From positions 1 to 12,144 of the forward strand of contig CAMYLL010000050.1 in the NCBI GenBank assembly GCA_947259235.1: DNA of 12,144 nucleotides, written 5' to 3'. The stretch comes from an uncultured Pseudodesulfovibrio sp. (GTDB lineage Bacteria; Desulfobacterota; Desulfovibrionia; Desulfovibrionales; Desulfovibrionaceae). The position numbers were made by a program, and so were the translations under genes. Shown here piece by piece: positions 2,924 through 12,144 of the stretch; position 1 is the first letter of the stretch, and the number at the start of each line of letters is the position of its first letter. The notes below the pieces were generated by a model. That model searched no databases and was not told the DNA's origin. It saw only the letters and a program-made list of their open reading frames with translations.

Positions 2924-3097
2924 GGGAATCCTTGTGATGCTTTTGGGATATTTTCCCGATTTCGCAGTGGGCGGGGGGTCTTGATCTTATCTGGCTATAC
3001 ACACGTATGATAATGATAGCAACACGGTGGAAGGGATCGACAGGCATCTTTTGGGACAATATCCCGCTTGCCCGCGTATGAGCGGAAGGGGGCGAGG

Positions 3098-3126
3098 TTT
3101 ACAGACCCTCCGGGAGTGCGTATATT
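3098..3126 (+). promoter_or_regulatory. Sigma70-type promoter for the riboswitch/HD-GYP transcript
   Basis: TTTACA (3098-3103) and TATATT (3121-3126) are separated by exactly 17 bp, close to the sigma70 consensus. Transcription would be expected to start near 3133, right at the beginning of the c-di-GMP aptamer, which fits its position. In a high-GC background this AT-rich pair with ideal spacing is unlikely to be chance. Confidence 0.6.
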
Positions 3127-3132
3127 GGGAGA

Positions 3133-3276
3133 GTAAAGACAAGCCAAACCCGTCGCGAGGCGGGGACGGAAAGCCACGGGTCTTTGCCGGTTGTCGTCGT
3201 CTGATCTCTGACATTGGTGTCGGGGGAGCCGTGCGGGCGGAGCCGGGGTGTAAAGACAGCCGGGTTGCCTCATCAT
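3133..3276 (+). promoter_or_regulatory. Cyclic di-GMP-I (GEMM-I) riboswitch aptamer
   Basis: Seen directly: the core AAGCCAAACC (3141-3150); a hairpin CCCGTC-GCGA-GGCGGG (3149-3164) capped by a GNRA tetraloop; the linker GGACGGAAAGCC (3164-3175); a second arm closed by GTCTTT (3180-3185) pairing with AAAGAC (3252-3257); and the 3' strand AGCCGGGTTGCC (3258-3269). This order is the GEMM-I signature (typical: GCAAACC, GNRA hairpin, GGGACGCAAAGCC, second arm, AGCnGGGUUnCC). By my recollection of Vibrio Vc2 numbering, G20 is kept, which argues for c-di-GMP rather than cGAMP specificity, while the 21-46 pair is C-G instead of G-C. The second arm is unusually long (66 nt between closing strands) and contains further pairing such as GACA-TTGG-TGTC (3210-3221). 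The outer P1 helix is not convincing. The adjacent gene is an HD-GYP c-di-GMP phosphodiesterase. Confidence 0.85.
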
Positions 3277-3345
3277 CTTCCCCCGGAGCATCGCGCCACG
3301 CGACGCCCCGGCGGCCAGACGATTCCCCGGCGACCCAGGAGGGAG
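3277..3345 (+). promoter_or_regulatory. Candidate expression platform: anti-Shine-Dalgarno pairing
   Basis: CTTCCCCC (3277-3284), directly after the aptamer, can pair with GGAGGGAG (3338-3345), which contains the ribosome site of the HD-GYP gene: seven of eight positions pair, one as G-U, with one C-A mismatch. This would hide the start when formed. The same CTTCCC could instead pair with GGGAGAG (3127-3133, one bulge) as the outer aptamer helix, but that 5' segment is in the RNA only if transcription begins upstream of the predicted 3133 start. The direction of control (ligand on or off) is therefore unresolved. Confidence 0.4.
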
Positions 3346-3347
3346 TC

Positions 3348-4355
3348 ATGGGAGCCACCATTCCCGCCGGAAACGGCGGCGACACCGGAAAGCAAACAAT
3401 GGGCAGCCTGTTCAAGGTTTCGCCATATATGGTCATACCGTCCCGCGTGGGCGGGTTTTCCCTGTTTCTCAAGCAGGAGGACGCCTATGTCCTCTATGCC
3501 GAAAAGGGCGAACTGTTCACCGAGGCCCACAAGGAGCGGCTGGCCCGTCTGGGGGTGGACCATCTCTACGTCCGGGCCGAGGACTACCGCAACTATGCGG
3601 GCTACCTGCAGGAAAACCTGCTCGACATCATGGATGACGAGGCGGTCCCGGTGCGCGAGCGGGCCAGGGCGTGGAACGACGCCACGGTCTCCCTGGCCCG
3701 GGAGGCGTTCGAGACCCGTCTGCCCAAGACCATGGACAAGCGCAGCTTTGCCAGGATTCGTGCCCTGATCACCAACAGCCTGCGGTTCCTGGCGCGCGAA
3801 GACGCCCTCAGGGAGCTGTCGCGCTTCATCTCCGAAGGCAGTGATCTGTACAAGCACGGCATCGGCGTCATGGTCCTGACCGTCAGCGTGCTGTCGTCCT
3901 ATGTGAAGGAAGACGCGGAGCTGATGGTGGCCGTGGGTATGGGGGCCATGCTCCACGACATAGGCAAGCTCGAACTGCCCCCCGAGCTCTTTGCCCGCCG
4001 TACCGACACCCTGAGCCAGGCGGAGCAGGACATGATCCGCTCCCATCCCGCCCTGGGCGTGGGCGTCTGTTCCTCGCTGCCGCTGCCCCAGGAGGCGTTG
4101 CAGTGCATCCTCTTTCACCACGAGCGCGAGGACGGCTCCGGCTATCCGTCGGGCGCATCGGGCGAGCTGCTGCCGTCCTATGTCAAGGTCGTGGCCCTGT
4201 GTAACGACTACGACTCCCTGGTCCGAGGCGGGCCGAACCGCAAGAGCCTGAGCCCCTTCGAGGCACTGACCCGGATCAAGTCGCGGCGTGGCGGGGTTGA
4301 ACCCGAGCTGCTCAAGCGGCTCATAGCCATCCTATCCAAGGCCCAGATAGCCTGA
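3348..4355 (+). CDS. HD-GYP domain cyclic di-GMP phosphodiesterase
   Basis: Encodes 335 residues. HD-GYP enzymes hydrolyse c-di-GMP to pGpG and GMP at a two- or three-iron centre. Seen: His170 in YKHGIG, the metal-binding pair His203-Asp204 in LHDIGK, a later SHPALG histidine, the His257-His258 pair in the signature HHEREDGSGYP, and NDYDSLV downstream, all in the order expected of the family. The first about 110 residues form a non-catalytic domain (GFSLFLKQEDAYVLYAEKG...) common ahead of HD-GYP domains in deltaproteobacteria; there is no membrane segment or receiver domain. Start chosen at ATG 3348 because AGGAGG lies 5 nt upstream; an in-frame ATG at 3027 would put a promoter and a riboswitch inside the protein. 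The leader carries a c-di-GMP riboswitch, so the enzyme's own substrate probably sets its expression. A convergent terminator-like hairpin follows. Confidence 0.93.
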   Translation: MGATIPAGNGGDTGKQTMGSLFKVSPYMVIPSRVGGFSLFLKQEDAYVLYAEKGELFTEAHKERLARLGVDHLYVRAEDYRNYAGYLQENLLDIMDDEAVPVRERARAWNDATVSLAREAFETRLPKTMDKRSFARIRALITNSLRFLAREDALRELSRFISEGSDLYKHGIGVMVLTVSVLSSYVKEDAELMVAVGMGAMLHDIGKLELPPELFARRTDTLSQAEQDMIRSHPALGVGVCSSLPLPQEALQCILFHHEREDGSGYPSGASGELLPSYVKVVALCNDYDSLVRGGPNRKSLSPFEALTRIKSRRGGVEPELLKRLIAILSKAQIA

Positions 4356-9062: not shown

Positions 9063-9090
9063 ATTCTAGCCTTGATCTTTGACATGTCAA
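9063..9090 (-). promoter_or_regulatory. Sigma70-type promoter of the DUF523-YgjP operon
   Basis: Minus strand: a perfect TTGACA (9090-9085), 16-bp spacer, TAGAAT (9068-9063). The predicted start near 9056 leaves a leader of about 48 nt. The -35 box is one half of the palindrome at 9077-9092, so a protein bound there would block it. On the plus strand a weaker pair (TTGATC 9072-9077, CATATT 9094-9099, 16 bp) could serve the MFS gene. Confidence 0.6.
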
Positions 9091-9092
9091 AG
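9077..9092. promoter_or_regulatory. 16-bp perfect palindrome, candidate operator in divergent promoter region
   Basis: CTTTGACATGTCAAAG is an exact inverted repeat of 8 bp per arm with no spacer. It covers the -35 box of the DUF523 promoter and falls between the putative -35 and -10 boxes of the MFS promoter, so one dimeric regulator could control both directions. No regulator gene is adjacent in this window, so the binding protein is unknown. Confidence 0.5.
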
Positions 9093-9123
9093 TCATATTG
9101 TGCCCCCGCAGCAGAGGTGCACG

Positions 9124-10170
9124 ATGAATGATTCATACAAGCGGCGGACCATGTACGTCTTTCTGCTCGTCCTCGTGGTGGGCGCGCAGGTGGGATTCCA
9201 GGGGTGGCGCACGCTGCTCAACAACTTTGCGGTGGAAGTGGGCGGGCTTTCGGGCCTGGATATCGGCGTGGTCCAGTCCGTGCGCGAGATTCCGGGGTTC
9301 CTGGCCCTGCTGGCCATCTATGTCATAATGATAATGCGCGAGCACAGGCTGGCCGCCGTCTCGGTGTGCGTGCTCGGCCTGGGGGTGACCCTGACCGGAC
9401 TGCTGCCCTCAACGGGCGGGCTGGTTTTCACCACCCTGCTCATGAGCTTCGGGTTTCACTACTTCGAGACCATGAACCAGTCCCTCACCCTCCAGTATTT
9501 CAACCATGTCGAGGCCCCGCTGGTCATGGGACGGCTGCGCAGCGTCTCCGCCCTGACCAATATCGTGGTGGGCGGGGCCATCTATCTTCTGGCCAAGGCC
9601 ATGGGCTATGCGGAGATGTTCGCCGTCCTCGGGGGCGTGGCCGTGGCCGCCGGGCTGTGGGCCCTGACCCGCGATCCGTCCAGCGTGGACATCCCCGTCC
9701 AGCGCAAGAAGATGGTCTTCAGGTCCAGGTACTGGCTCTACTACGCCCTGACTTTCCTGAGCGGGGCCAGGCGTCAGGTGTTCGTGGCCTTTGCCGTCTT
9801 CCTGCTGGTCAAGAAGTTCGGCTATTCCGTGGAGCAGGTGACCGTCCTCTTCGTGCTCAACAACGTGGTCAATTATTTCGCCAATCCGCTCATCGGGCGG
9901 GCCGTGAACCGGTACGGGGAGCGGATGGTGCTGAGTGTTGAGTACGCGGGGCTGTTTCTGGTCTTCACCGGTTACGCCCTGACCGAGAGCGCGCTCCTGG
10001 CCGGGCTGCTCTACGTGGCGGACAACGTGCTCTTCAACTTCGCCATGGCCATCAAGACATTCTACCACAAGGTTATTACGGTAAATAAAGTATACTTAAA
10101 GCCACTGTTTTCTCTTAAAATAGATTTCATAAACTTTTTTTGTGTGGACGACATGGAGTTGTTACGGTAA
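9124..10170 (+). pseudogene. MFS transporter gene truncated at its 3' end by a mobile element
   Basis: The host-like part runs from ATG 9124 (AGAGG 6 nt upstream) to about 10071 and gives about 316 residues of a major facilitator superfamily transporter of the roughly 400-residue kind: repeated hydrophobic helices from residue 10 on, a basic loop MREHR, GRLRSVSALTNIVVGG in the middle, and a second half beginning near YWLYYALTFLSG. The last recognisable segment is AMAIKTFYHK; in relatives this is followed by about 80-90 more residues with the last helices. Here the frame enters AT-rich sequence, adds about 32 unrelated residues (VITVNKVYLKPLF...) and stops at 10168-10170. The loss of terminal helices makes function doubtful. 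Substrate is not recognisable. An open frame also starts at 9079, inside the palindrome region, but has no ribosome site there. Confidence 0.88.
10072..10086 (+). repeat. Direct repeat 1 at the element's left edge
   Basis: GTTATTACGGTAAAT, matching 14 of 15 bases of a second copy at 10158-10172. It contains the 9-nt palindrome TTACGGTAA (10076-10084) and is followed at 10088-10097 by another perfect palindrome, AAGTATACTT. It begins exactly where MFS coding similarity appears to end, so it may be a recombinase binding site at the element terminus. Confidence 0.6.
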
Positions 10171-10172
10171 AT
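10158..10172 (+). repeat. Direct repeat 2 upstream of the recombinase gene
   Basis: GTTGTTACGGTAAAT, 86 bp downstream of the first copy, with the same TTACGGTAA core (10162-10170). TATACT follows both copies after 4 and 2 nt respectively, so similarity extends to about 24 bp with a small gap. It overlaps the putative recombinase promoter, so binding there could also autoregulate the recombinase. Confidence 0.6.
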
Positions 10173-10187
10173 TTTATACTATATAAT
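10159..10187 (+). promoter_or_regulatory. Promoter-like pair before the recombinase gene
   Basis: TTGTTA (10159-10164) and a perfect TATAAT (10182-10187) are 17 bp apart. The predicted start near 10194 falls inside the ribosome site AGGA (10192-10195) of the recombinase gene, so the transcript would be almost leaderless. The boxes are good but the geometry is odd, and in such AT-rich DNA chance matches are common. Confidence 0.35.
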
Positions 10188-10200
10188 AAAAAGGACTTTA

Positions 10201-11670
10201 ATGAGCGCAGCCAATCCCTATTTTCATAGTGTCGTCGGAACTACAATACAACTTGGCAATATCCGAAGAAGAACATGGGTCATTTTTGACTCTGATGGAA
10301 ACATGTTTCGCCCCTTAATCGAATACTTTATCGAAAAAGGGGTCGGCTTGATGACCCAGCGCCACATCGCCATGGCTGTCGGGCTATATATTGATTATAT
10401 GGTCGCCAACGGTGCTACATATAGTCAGCGCAACAACAAATCAGCATTTCTTTCTGATTTTGCATGGGCTATTCAACATGGGACTGTTCACAGCACAGAA
10501 GACCACACCGGCCTATATTGGAAATCAAGGACGTCTGTTCAGGCTAGAAAAATACTGAATTCTGTTTGTGAGTTTCTTGATTGGTTGCTTGAGGCTGGCG
10601 GTTTGCCTGCAACAGATTTGTACCGAGCATCAACCTTAAGTGAAAAAATGGCCTACTGGCGATACTTCAACACGAAGAAGCAGGCCTCTCTTTTAAATCA
10701 CATAAAATTCTATTCTCATGCAATGAAGGATGCGGAGACTACCAGAAGAGCTTCTATAAGAAGAGTCTCTACGGGGCGAGATGTCCGGCCACCAAGATTC
10801 CCCGAAGACAAGATATTTAATTTGCTGTTCGAAGGATTCGTTAAACCTGGCAAACTGAACGACGATCGACTTTGGGTGAAGTATGACCTCCGCAATATTT
10901 TGATCACAATATTACTTCATGGTGGAGGGTTGAGAGTTTCTGAGCCCTTCCACATATATTGCCACGATGTAATTTCTGACCCCTATGACTCAGGTCAGTG
11001 CGTTGTCAGAGTTTATCACCCATCTGATGGCTTGATTAAGGATGTAGATACTATCACTGGCAAGCCTGTTGATAAAACCCGAAGCCAATATCTTCAAGAT
11101 CGCTTTGACCTTAGACCACGCCATGAAATCTTTGGAAGAGAACATGCAGGCTGGAAAGATTTATTTCTCGATGAAGCCAGATCTCAATTTTATATAAATG
11201 TTCACTGGTTTCCTCGATATTGGGGGGTATTGTTTAGAAGTTTCTATGCGCTGTATGTCAAGCATGTCCTCCCTGTAAACATGAAACATCCTTACGCTTT
11301 CATATGTACTGGCAAGAGATATTTCGGAAAGCCATACACCATAGCGTCTTTTCGGGAAGCGCATAAGGGGGCAGTTTTGAAAATTGGGCTTGAGTATAAA
11401 AAAGAATATGGAACGACACCGCACGGCCATCGCCATGCTTATGGGCAGAACTTAAAAGCTTCTGGAGTAAGAGAAAGACATATTCAAGCCTGCATGCATC
11501 ATCGGTCTCCTCTAAGTCAGTTGGTATACACTGAGCCAACTTACAGAGAAATAGATGCGATCCTTTCTAGTACCTCACAAAAGGTCCCAAACTATCGCAC
11601 GATACAGGAAAAGCTGGGAAAACACTTCAATGTTTCAATAGAAGAACTCTTAAGAGAACTGGTTCGATAA
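10201..11670 (+). CDS. gmtY: Tyrosine recombinase resembling GmtY (Gamma-Mobile-Trio recombinase)
   Basis: Encodes 489 residues. Tyrosine recombinases cut and join DNA through a 3'-phosphotyrosine. The catalytic set is complete in order: Arg245 in GGGLRVSEPF, His408-Arg411 in GTTPHGHRHAYGQ, a histidine at 433/434 in CMHHRS, and Tyr443 in QLVYTEP. The N-terminal about 150 residues are likely the SAM-like DNA-binding domain. Family assignment to GmtY rests on remembered similarity of the segments LLHGGGLRVSEPFHIY, HPYAFI, and GTTPHGHRHAYGQ...MHH, and on length and gene order; no search was run. Ordinary phage integrases are shorter and lack these long inserts. AGGA lies 5 nt before the ATG. Codons are AT-rich, unlike the host genes. 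A partner gene begins 1 nt after the stop. An alternative is another multi-recombinase element (Tn554-like or RIT). Confidence 0.78.
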   Translation: MSAANPYFHSVVGTTIQLGNIRRRTWVIFDSDGNMFRPLIEYFIEKGVGLMTQRHIAMAVGLYIDYMVANGATYSQRNNKSAFLSDFAWAIQHGTVHSTEDHTGLYWKSRTSVQARKILNSVCEFLDWLLEAGGLPATDLYRASTLSEKMAYWRYFNTKKQASLLNHIKFYSHAMKDAETTRRASIRRVSTGRDVRPPRFPEDKIFNLLFEGFVKPGKLNDDRLWVKYDLRNILITILLHGGGLRVSEPFHIYCHDVISDPYDSGQCVVRVYHPSDGLIKDVDTITGKPVDKTRSQYLQDRFDLRPRHEIFGREHAGWKDLFLDEARSQFYINVHWFPRYWGVLFRSFYALYVKHVLPVNMKHPYAFICTGKRYFGKPYTIASFREAHKGAVLKIGLEYKKEYGTTPHGHRHAYGQNLKASGVRERHIQACMHHRSPLSQLVYTEPTYREIDAILSSTSQKVPNYRTIQEKLGKHFNVSIEELLRELVR

Positions 11671-11671
11671 A

Positions 11672-12144
11672 ATGGGTACATTAATACAATCTAATAGCTA
11701 CTCAGTTTATAAATCTGCATATGACGGCAGAGACATCATTATAAATACTAGCCCCAATATGTACCTATTACCTGAGGAAAATGTACAATTGTGCGCCTCA
11801 GTACTAAAATCTATATATTCACATTATATGGCAATCATCTCAAAGACAAAGACTCCAAACTGGGATGATCACAACTACAAGGTAAGAAAAGCTCTAATAT
11901 GGATATGTGAGCTCTACACAAGCCACAATCCAATAGAGCTAATCAGCATTGGTTCCTTTTTTGATGGCTACCAGGAGAAAATACAAAAACTCAAAAAATC
12001 GTCAAAGAAGAATTACCACAACGGCTATTTTTTCGGAGATATTAAAAGGATTTTAGGAATATTAAGGGTTAAAGAATTGATTGCAATGCCCTTAGGCCAA
12101 ACAGATTATAGTAAAAACTACTTGGTAGGAAGTGACAATCCAAC
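11672..12144 (+). CDS. Second recombinase-module protein, N-terminal part (possible GmtZ-type integrase)
   Basis: An ATG at 11672, one base after the recombinase stop codon, opens a frame with no stop up to the window end: 157 complete codons. It starts MGTLIQSNSYSVYKSAYDGR and ends ...NYLVGSDNP. The segment is mostly helical in appearance with a lysine-rich part (KIQKLKKSSKKNYHNGYFFG, about 109-128) that resembles the N-terminal DNA-binding part of integrase-like proteins, but I do not recognise a specific family from it alone. The tight spacing implies translational coupling with the recombinase; a separate ribosome site is not clear beyond AAGAACTC and AGAGAACTGG in the upstream codons. 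In GMT systems GmtY is followed by the larger GmtZ, and this position fits, but catalytic residues would lie beyond the window. Confidence 0.75.
   Translation, partial: MGTLIQSNSYSVYKSAYDGRDIIINTSPNMYLLPEENVQLCASVLKSIYSHYMAIISKTKTPNWDDHNYKVRKALIWICELYTSHNPIELISIGSFFDGYQEKIQKLKKSSKKNYHNGYFFGDIKRILGILRVKELIAMPLGQTDYSKNYLVGSDNP

Follow-up and report, generated by a model that had tools for sequence, protein, structure and literature searches.

The closest described systems are the gamma-mobile-trio (GMT) islands, a type that takes its name from the gammaproteobacteria, in which the genes gmtY, gmtZ and gmtX stand in a row and the cargo lies after gmtX. Two more groups, the GInts (ginABCD) and the RIT elements, also carry several recombinases. 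In Vibrio, GMT islands have been described as mobile arsenals that carry anti-phage systems as well as toxins against other bacteria (PMC12039261). Tn554 and the SE elements (strand-biased circularizing integrative elements) combine one ordinary and one large tyrosine recombinase with a small protein and do not duplicate their target, but carry along 6 bases of the old flank instead (PMC10214605).

The stretch of DNA analysed here (the window) is the whole of contig C50, 12144 nt long, and the contig ends at position 12144. The source genome is MAG-like and fragmented (2.93 Mb, 474 contigs, 82.8% complete, 0.5% contamination). One AprA fragment of this genome scored above the curated cut-off, and its best PDB match was 3gyx (842 bits), which fits a Desulfovibrio-like sulfate reducer. 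The host is probably such an organism, and the Desulfovibrio-like host proposed in a preliminary description of the window fits this result. The same description had noted AT-rich DNA within a GC-rich chromosome. The GC content was indeed 0.644 in the host-like DNA before position 10072 and 0.401 from there on, and the GC3 values were 0.41 for gmtY, 0.38 for the following ORF2 and 0.88 for the MFS gene. At some distance from this step, a c-di-GMP-I-GGC riboswitch was found at 3135-3273 on the plus strand (59.9 bits, gathering threshold 59). It lies towards the 5' end of the mechanical ORF 3027-4355, the true start of which is probably later; the C-terminal half of this ORF was judged by eye to be HD-GYP-like.

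We consider it very likely that the window holds a GMT-type integrative element inserted in a host MFS gene. This reading is based on the equivalog match of GmtY, on the junctions found on two contigs, and on a layout like that of a Vibrio GMT. The features are listed in Table 1.

Table 1. Features of the element and of the interrupted host gene (window positions unless a contig is named).
Feature	Position	Strand	Basis or remark
Interrupted host MFS transporter gene, 5' part	9079..10071	+	Pfam MFS_1 52.4 bits; homology to intact relatives
Inserted element, left part, cut by contig end	10072..12144	+	host homology stops at 10071; GC 0.40 vs 0.64
GTTATTACGGTAAAT, copy 1 of 15-nt direct repeat	10072..10086	+	exactly at left terminus of the element
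GTTGTTACGGTAAAT, copy 2 of the repeat, 14/15	10158..10172	+	overlaps first hexamer of sigma-70-like promoter match
Sigma-70-like promoter match	10159-10187		10/12 positions
gmtY, tyrosine recombinase, 489 aa	10201..11670	+	NF040693 443.1 bits
ORF2, first 157 aa, gene cut by contig end	11672..12144	+	1 nt after gmtY
Element right end, 267 nt	L103:6512-6778		AT-rich, precedes MFS tail in MFS orientation
MFS gene, 3' part	contig C144 (L103), from 6511 downwards	-	found in same genome

The product of 10201-11670 matched NF040693, the NCBIfam model of GmtY to which the preliminary description had pointed, with an E value of 1.4e-132 and a score well above the curated equivalog cut-off of 340, whereas the second-best NCBIfam family, a generic Xer model, reached 26.9 bits. 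Judged from its sequence, the product is GmtY. Residues R245, K319, H408, R411, H433, H434 and Y443 were invariant in an alignment of 28 sequences, namely window GmtY and 27 relatives drawn from the best 120 of 443 proteins matching at E ≤ 0.001, and all 28 matched NF040693 at E ≤ 0.001. The R-K-H-R-H-Y residues of window GmtY we take to be the catalytic set, following established knowledge of tyrosine recombinases. By these residues, the protein is a tyrosine recombinase with the full catalytic set. The complete recombinase that had been described earlier from R245, H408, R411, H433, H434 and Y443 was borne out by the alignment. An AlphaFold model of GmtY (mean pLDDT 76, pTM 0.51) had its best PDB matches in Cre and XerA (Foldseek, E about 1e-5), with poor superposition of the whole chain (TM 0.30-0.52, rmsd about 15).

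We also considered an integrase of phage or prophage origin and rejected it. None of 50,697 phage records had a GmtY homologue at E ≤ 1e-5, no relative was found in IMG/VR by either the single-sequence or the alignment-query scan, and the PHROG integrase matches of window GmtY were weak (≤32 bits).

The single-sequence scan of GTDB contigs gave no match either. By the use of an alignment query and two short peptide patterns, 47 GmtY loci were collected from GTDB contigs; because they were found by two short patterns, they are a sample only. GmtZ-like and GmtX-like genes were called with three reference sequences each among ORFs of at least 100 aa, some loci being cut by contig ends. On this basis the next ORF was GmtZ-like in 41 loci (42 with L055, which has one ORF between), five loci had no such gene within reach, and a GmtX-like gene was present in 37 of the 47. 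Loci in which gmtY has no adjacent gmtZ are L031 on the Serratia plasmid p1 and L093 and L094 of Pseudomonas. In L031 the gene after gmtY is annotated as a hemolysin secretion/activation protein. In eleven loci (L061, L063, L064, L065, L067, L074, L076, L078, L079, L086 and L096), the DNA just upstream of gmtY encodes a helicase-like C-terminus of similar sequence (LLDRTLLYTAVTRAQQQVILVGD with variants, by eye), which suggests that this gene is either a favoured target or a neighbour that has been conserved. NF040694 was rejected as a Gmt family, as it is a model of riboflavin kinase.

Window GmtY was 29-45% identical to the 47 GTDB relatives (best segment), and the closest protein among the matches listed was the metagenome protein P0001 with 62% identity, the gene of which lies on a 5.9-kb contig. 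In a quick tree of 49 sequences, for which 32 of the 47 GTDB loci were used, window GmtY was joined by P0001 (support 100) and then by P0035/P0040 (95) inside a group of 21 rows (SH-aLRT 88). All nine GmtY rows of the long-GmtZ type fall in this group. The window element is very likely a GMT within a divergent GmtY branch.

In a sample of 395 genomes of the phylum, a single one passed the GmtY cut-off (the best four candidates were scored in most genomes), and one of 348 genomes of the order had a GmtY match at E ≤ 1e-20. In both cases it was the genome studied here, and the latter count argues for sporadic acquisition. None of the E. coli genomes matched the element DNA. At E ≤ 1e-5, GmtY homologues were present in 142 plasmid records. 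Ten listed genera of gamma- and betaproteobacteria account for 117 of these records, and gmtY is already annotated on plasmids of Betaproteobacteria. Five of the 47 GTDB loci had titles from outside Pseudomonadota (Geobacteraceae, Acidobacteriaceae, Verrucomicrobia, Chloroflexi and Gemmatimonadetes); all five are MAG contigs, and the Gemmatimonadetes match is weak and partial. None of the papers searched joined gamma-mobile-trio with Desulfovibrio. The preliminary description had expected an extension of the host range or else a sister family. The reach into a probable sulfate reducer stood, but since gmtY is found on betaproteobacterial plasmids and a Geobacteraceae MAG carries a complete trio, the host range is widened rather than newly opened.

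A second open gene 1 nt after the recombinase had also been reported before, and ORF2 (11672-12142) was still open at the contig end. It had no match in NCBIfam, Pfam, PADLOC and PHROGs at E up to 10, and the GmtZ models NF047926 and PF13009 did not match the 157 aa present. When it was padded with GmtY residues to shift its length, two protein searches returned no protein match. A phmmer comparison with all 959 ORFs from the 47 GmtY loci gave nothing significant (best E 1.2), and no solved fold matched its structure model (pLDDT 67). In the GmtY loci, GmtZ proteins have between 0 and more than 400 aa ahead of the modelled region, and in Polaromonas GmtZ the curated model covers the protein from residue 290. 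Since this N-terminal stretch is variable and lies outside the curated model, the lack of a database match over 157 aa is expected and is not evidence against GmtZ.

Against a profile of nine N-termini of long, Polaromonas-like GmtZ, hhalign gave a score of 27.0 over 119 columns, starting from ORF2 residue 5, which is a weak match (E 0.0024, probability 12%). None of 300 shuffles reached this score (best 22.4), and the reversed sequence scored 12.1. Fifteen of 300 decoy ORFs from the same loci reached the score of ORF2; all fifteen stand at GmtZ positions, and three are members of the profile. When each of the nine members was left out in turn, the ORF2 score ranged from 23.8 (without L081) to 33.6, with only 32-35 columns aligned in three of the nine cases. 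For three other types of GmtZ N-terminus, ORF2 scored no better than 60 shuffles each, one type giving 23.6 with the best shuffle. In our judgement this is suggestive, and ORF2 is likely to encode a divergent GmtZ with a long N-terminus.

The other way to read ORF2 is that the element belongs to a sister family of GMT, in which the partner of a GmtY-type recombinase is a second protein other than GmtZ. The missing matches of ORF2 in the four family libraries, the two protein searches and the 959 ORFs would agree with this, but such silence is what the variable N-terminal stretch of GmtZ, outside the curated model, lets one expect over 157 aa, and the profile match singled out the one GmtZ type that falls in the tree group of window GmtY. 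We therefore regard a sister family as unlikely. It is just as doubtful that window GmtY, P0001 and P0035/P0040 form a separate GMT lineage of anaerobic sulfate reducers with a new, non-GmtZ second recombinase and unexplored cargo.

The insertion itself was resolved to the base. Intact MFS genes in the same-genus genomes G398 and G437 were 78% and 76% identical to the window MFS gene. The MFS homology to three relatives (L036 and L037 of the same genus, L038 of the same family) ceased at window position 10071, so that the element start given in the preliminary description, 10072, was exact. The rest of the MFS gene, which had been predicted there to mark the right end of the element, is found near the end of C144, where its tail adjoins the right end of the element, and beyond the tail follows the same downstream DNA as in the relatives. 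In each of L036, L037 and L038 the host homology of the left side gives way to that of the right side at a single base, with one G common to both sides. The insertion is clean, with an overlap of at most 1 bp and no target duplication, and the element is discrete, with two defined ends and an intact site in three relatives. Because the junctions lie at the same base of intact homologues, we regard this as a real integration. The insertion removes the end of the MFS transporter, so the MFS gene is probably inactive.

The middle of the element was not found in the bin, and the end of contig C50 recurs nowhere in the genome. The GmtX model NF040692 had no match in this genome; the controls were likewise silent, though the model does recognise known GmtX. 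The GmtZ model gave only a 25-bit match in the genome, on contig C319, which carries a generic recombinase. Near the right end, a reading frame of 39 aa (L103:6658-6777), open at the contig edge and without a Pfam match, may belong to the last part of a cargo gene. That GmtZ and GmtX were not found in the bin, and that the Serratia and Pseudomonas loci lack an adjacent GmtZ, would be consistent with a decayed element, in which an intact gmtY is stranded without a working trio. Against this, no stop interrupts gmtY or as much of ORF2 as the contig shows, both ends of the element are still present, and the bin is incomplete and lacks the element middle, so we hold decay to be improbable. Since decay is compatible with a GMT origin and would leave the element a GMT all the same, the probabilities of these explanations overlap. 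Foreign DNA joined to the host contig by an assembly chimera or a binning artefact, for which the fragmented assembly of 474 contigs and the sharp GC step might speak, is very unlikely, since on two separate contigs, one per side, the homology to the relatives breaks off at an identical base, which means one clean insertion, and the DNA after the MFS tail on C144 is the same as in the relatives.

At the left terminus of the GMT-type element, gmtY starts after 129 nt, behind the promoter-like site; two such sites were found in the stretch against 0.9 expected by chance. A repeat as good as the 15-nt pair occurred in three of 200 shuffles of the leader, so that the repeat itself is no more than suggestive. 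Because the terminal motif recurs over the first promoter hexamer, a protein binding the element end might also control the gmtY operon, as this arrangement suggests. The best ungapped inverted score between the two element ends was 9, and shuffled ends averaged 9.3 (direct orientation).

For the GMT-type element we infer the following steps. GmtY and the large second recombinase encoded by ORF2, if GmtZ-like, would bring the element ends together. A circular intermediate is probable and would then be inserted at a new site without duplication of target bases, as for Tn554 and the SEs. The end-binding protein might also repress the gmtY operon, and GmtX and cargo would lie between ORF2 and the right end on C144. 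With an insertion resolved to the base in what is probably a sulfate reducer, the route of GMT exchange extends beyond Pseudomonadota, and the two junctions offer exact primer sites for recovering the missing middle together with any cargo in it.

Compared with GInts and RIT elements, the window element has several recombinases, with their genes at one end, in common with them; both have three integrases, whereas the window protein matches the GmtY model far above generic integrase models. The likeness of Tn554 and the SEs to GMT consists in an unequal recombinase pair, a small helper and the lack of target duplication (PMC10214605). The SEs differ in having four core genes, and a 6-bp footprint like theirs was not demonstrated at the ends of the window element, where 6/12 at offset 6 was tied with other offsets (in the null, made at 16 nt alone, scores of this kind are frequent).

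The Geobacteraceae MAG contig (L060, 12.6 kb) carries gmtY, a GmtZ-like and a GmtX-like gene in a row beside other bacterial genes. It shares the 1-nt gap between gmtY and gmtZ and, if the window host is Desulfovibrio-like, also the NCBI phylum Thermodesulfobacteriota, but its GmtZ, with 860 aa, is a short one, and the tree places its GmtY in the large group to which window GmtY does not belong. At L060:9748-12592, beyond gmtX, the opposite strand carries a small ORF and then an RHS/YD-repeat-like gene (families by eye), possibly cargo.

A GMT on a Vibrio alginolyticus plasmid (L108:15478-25033) is about 9.6 kb long; its ends were set by comparison with one empty V. diabolicus plasmid (L113), and in many other records homology begins at the same left end. 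Six nt inside its right junction, a stretch of 12 nt agrees in 9/12 positions with the inverted left end when the first base is skipped; chance scores were drawn up for 16 nt alone, a length at which values like this one are frequent. The similarity of the left end of the window element to the Vibrio GMT ends was not significant (at best rank 22 of 4114 for 14 nt). The window element differs from GMT islands in an ORF2 that is too short or too divergent for the GmtZ model and in a host that is probably outside Pseudomonadota. It resembles them in a GmtY above the cut-off, in having gmtY leftmost and its genes directed into the element, and in the 1-nt gap that separates gmtY from the following gene. 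Some GMTs show this gap too (by mechanical starts, 6 of the 41 loci with a GmtZ-like next ORF). The left end lies 126 nt before gmtY in the V. alginolyticus GMT and 129 nt in the window element, and both elements have a 1-bp overlap and no target duplication.
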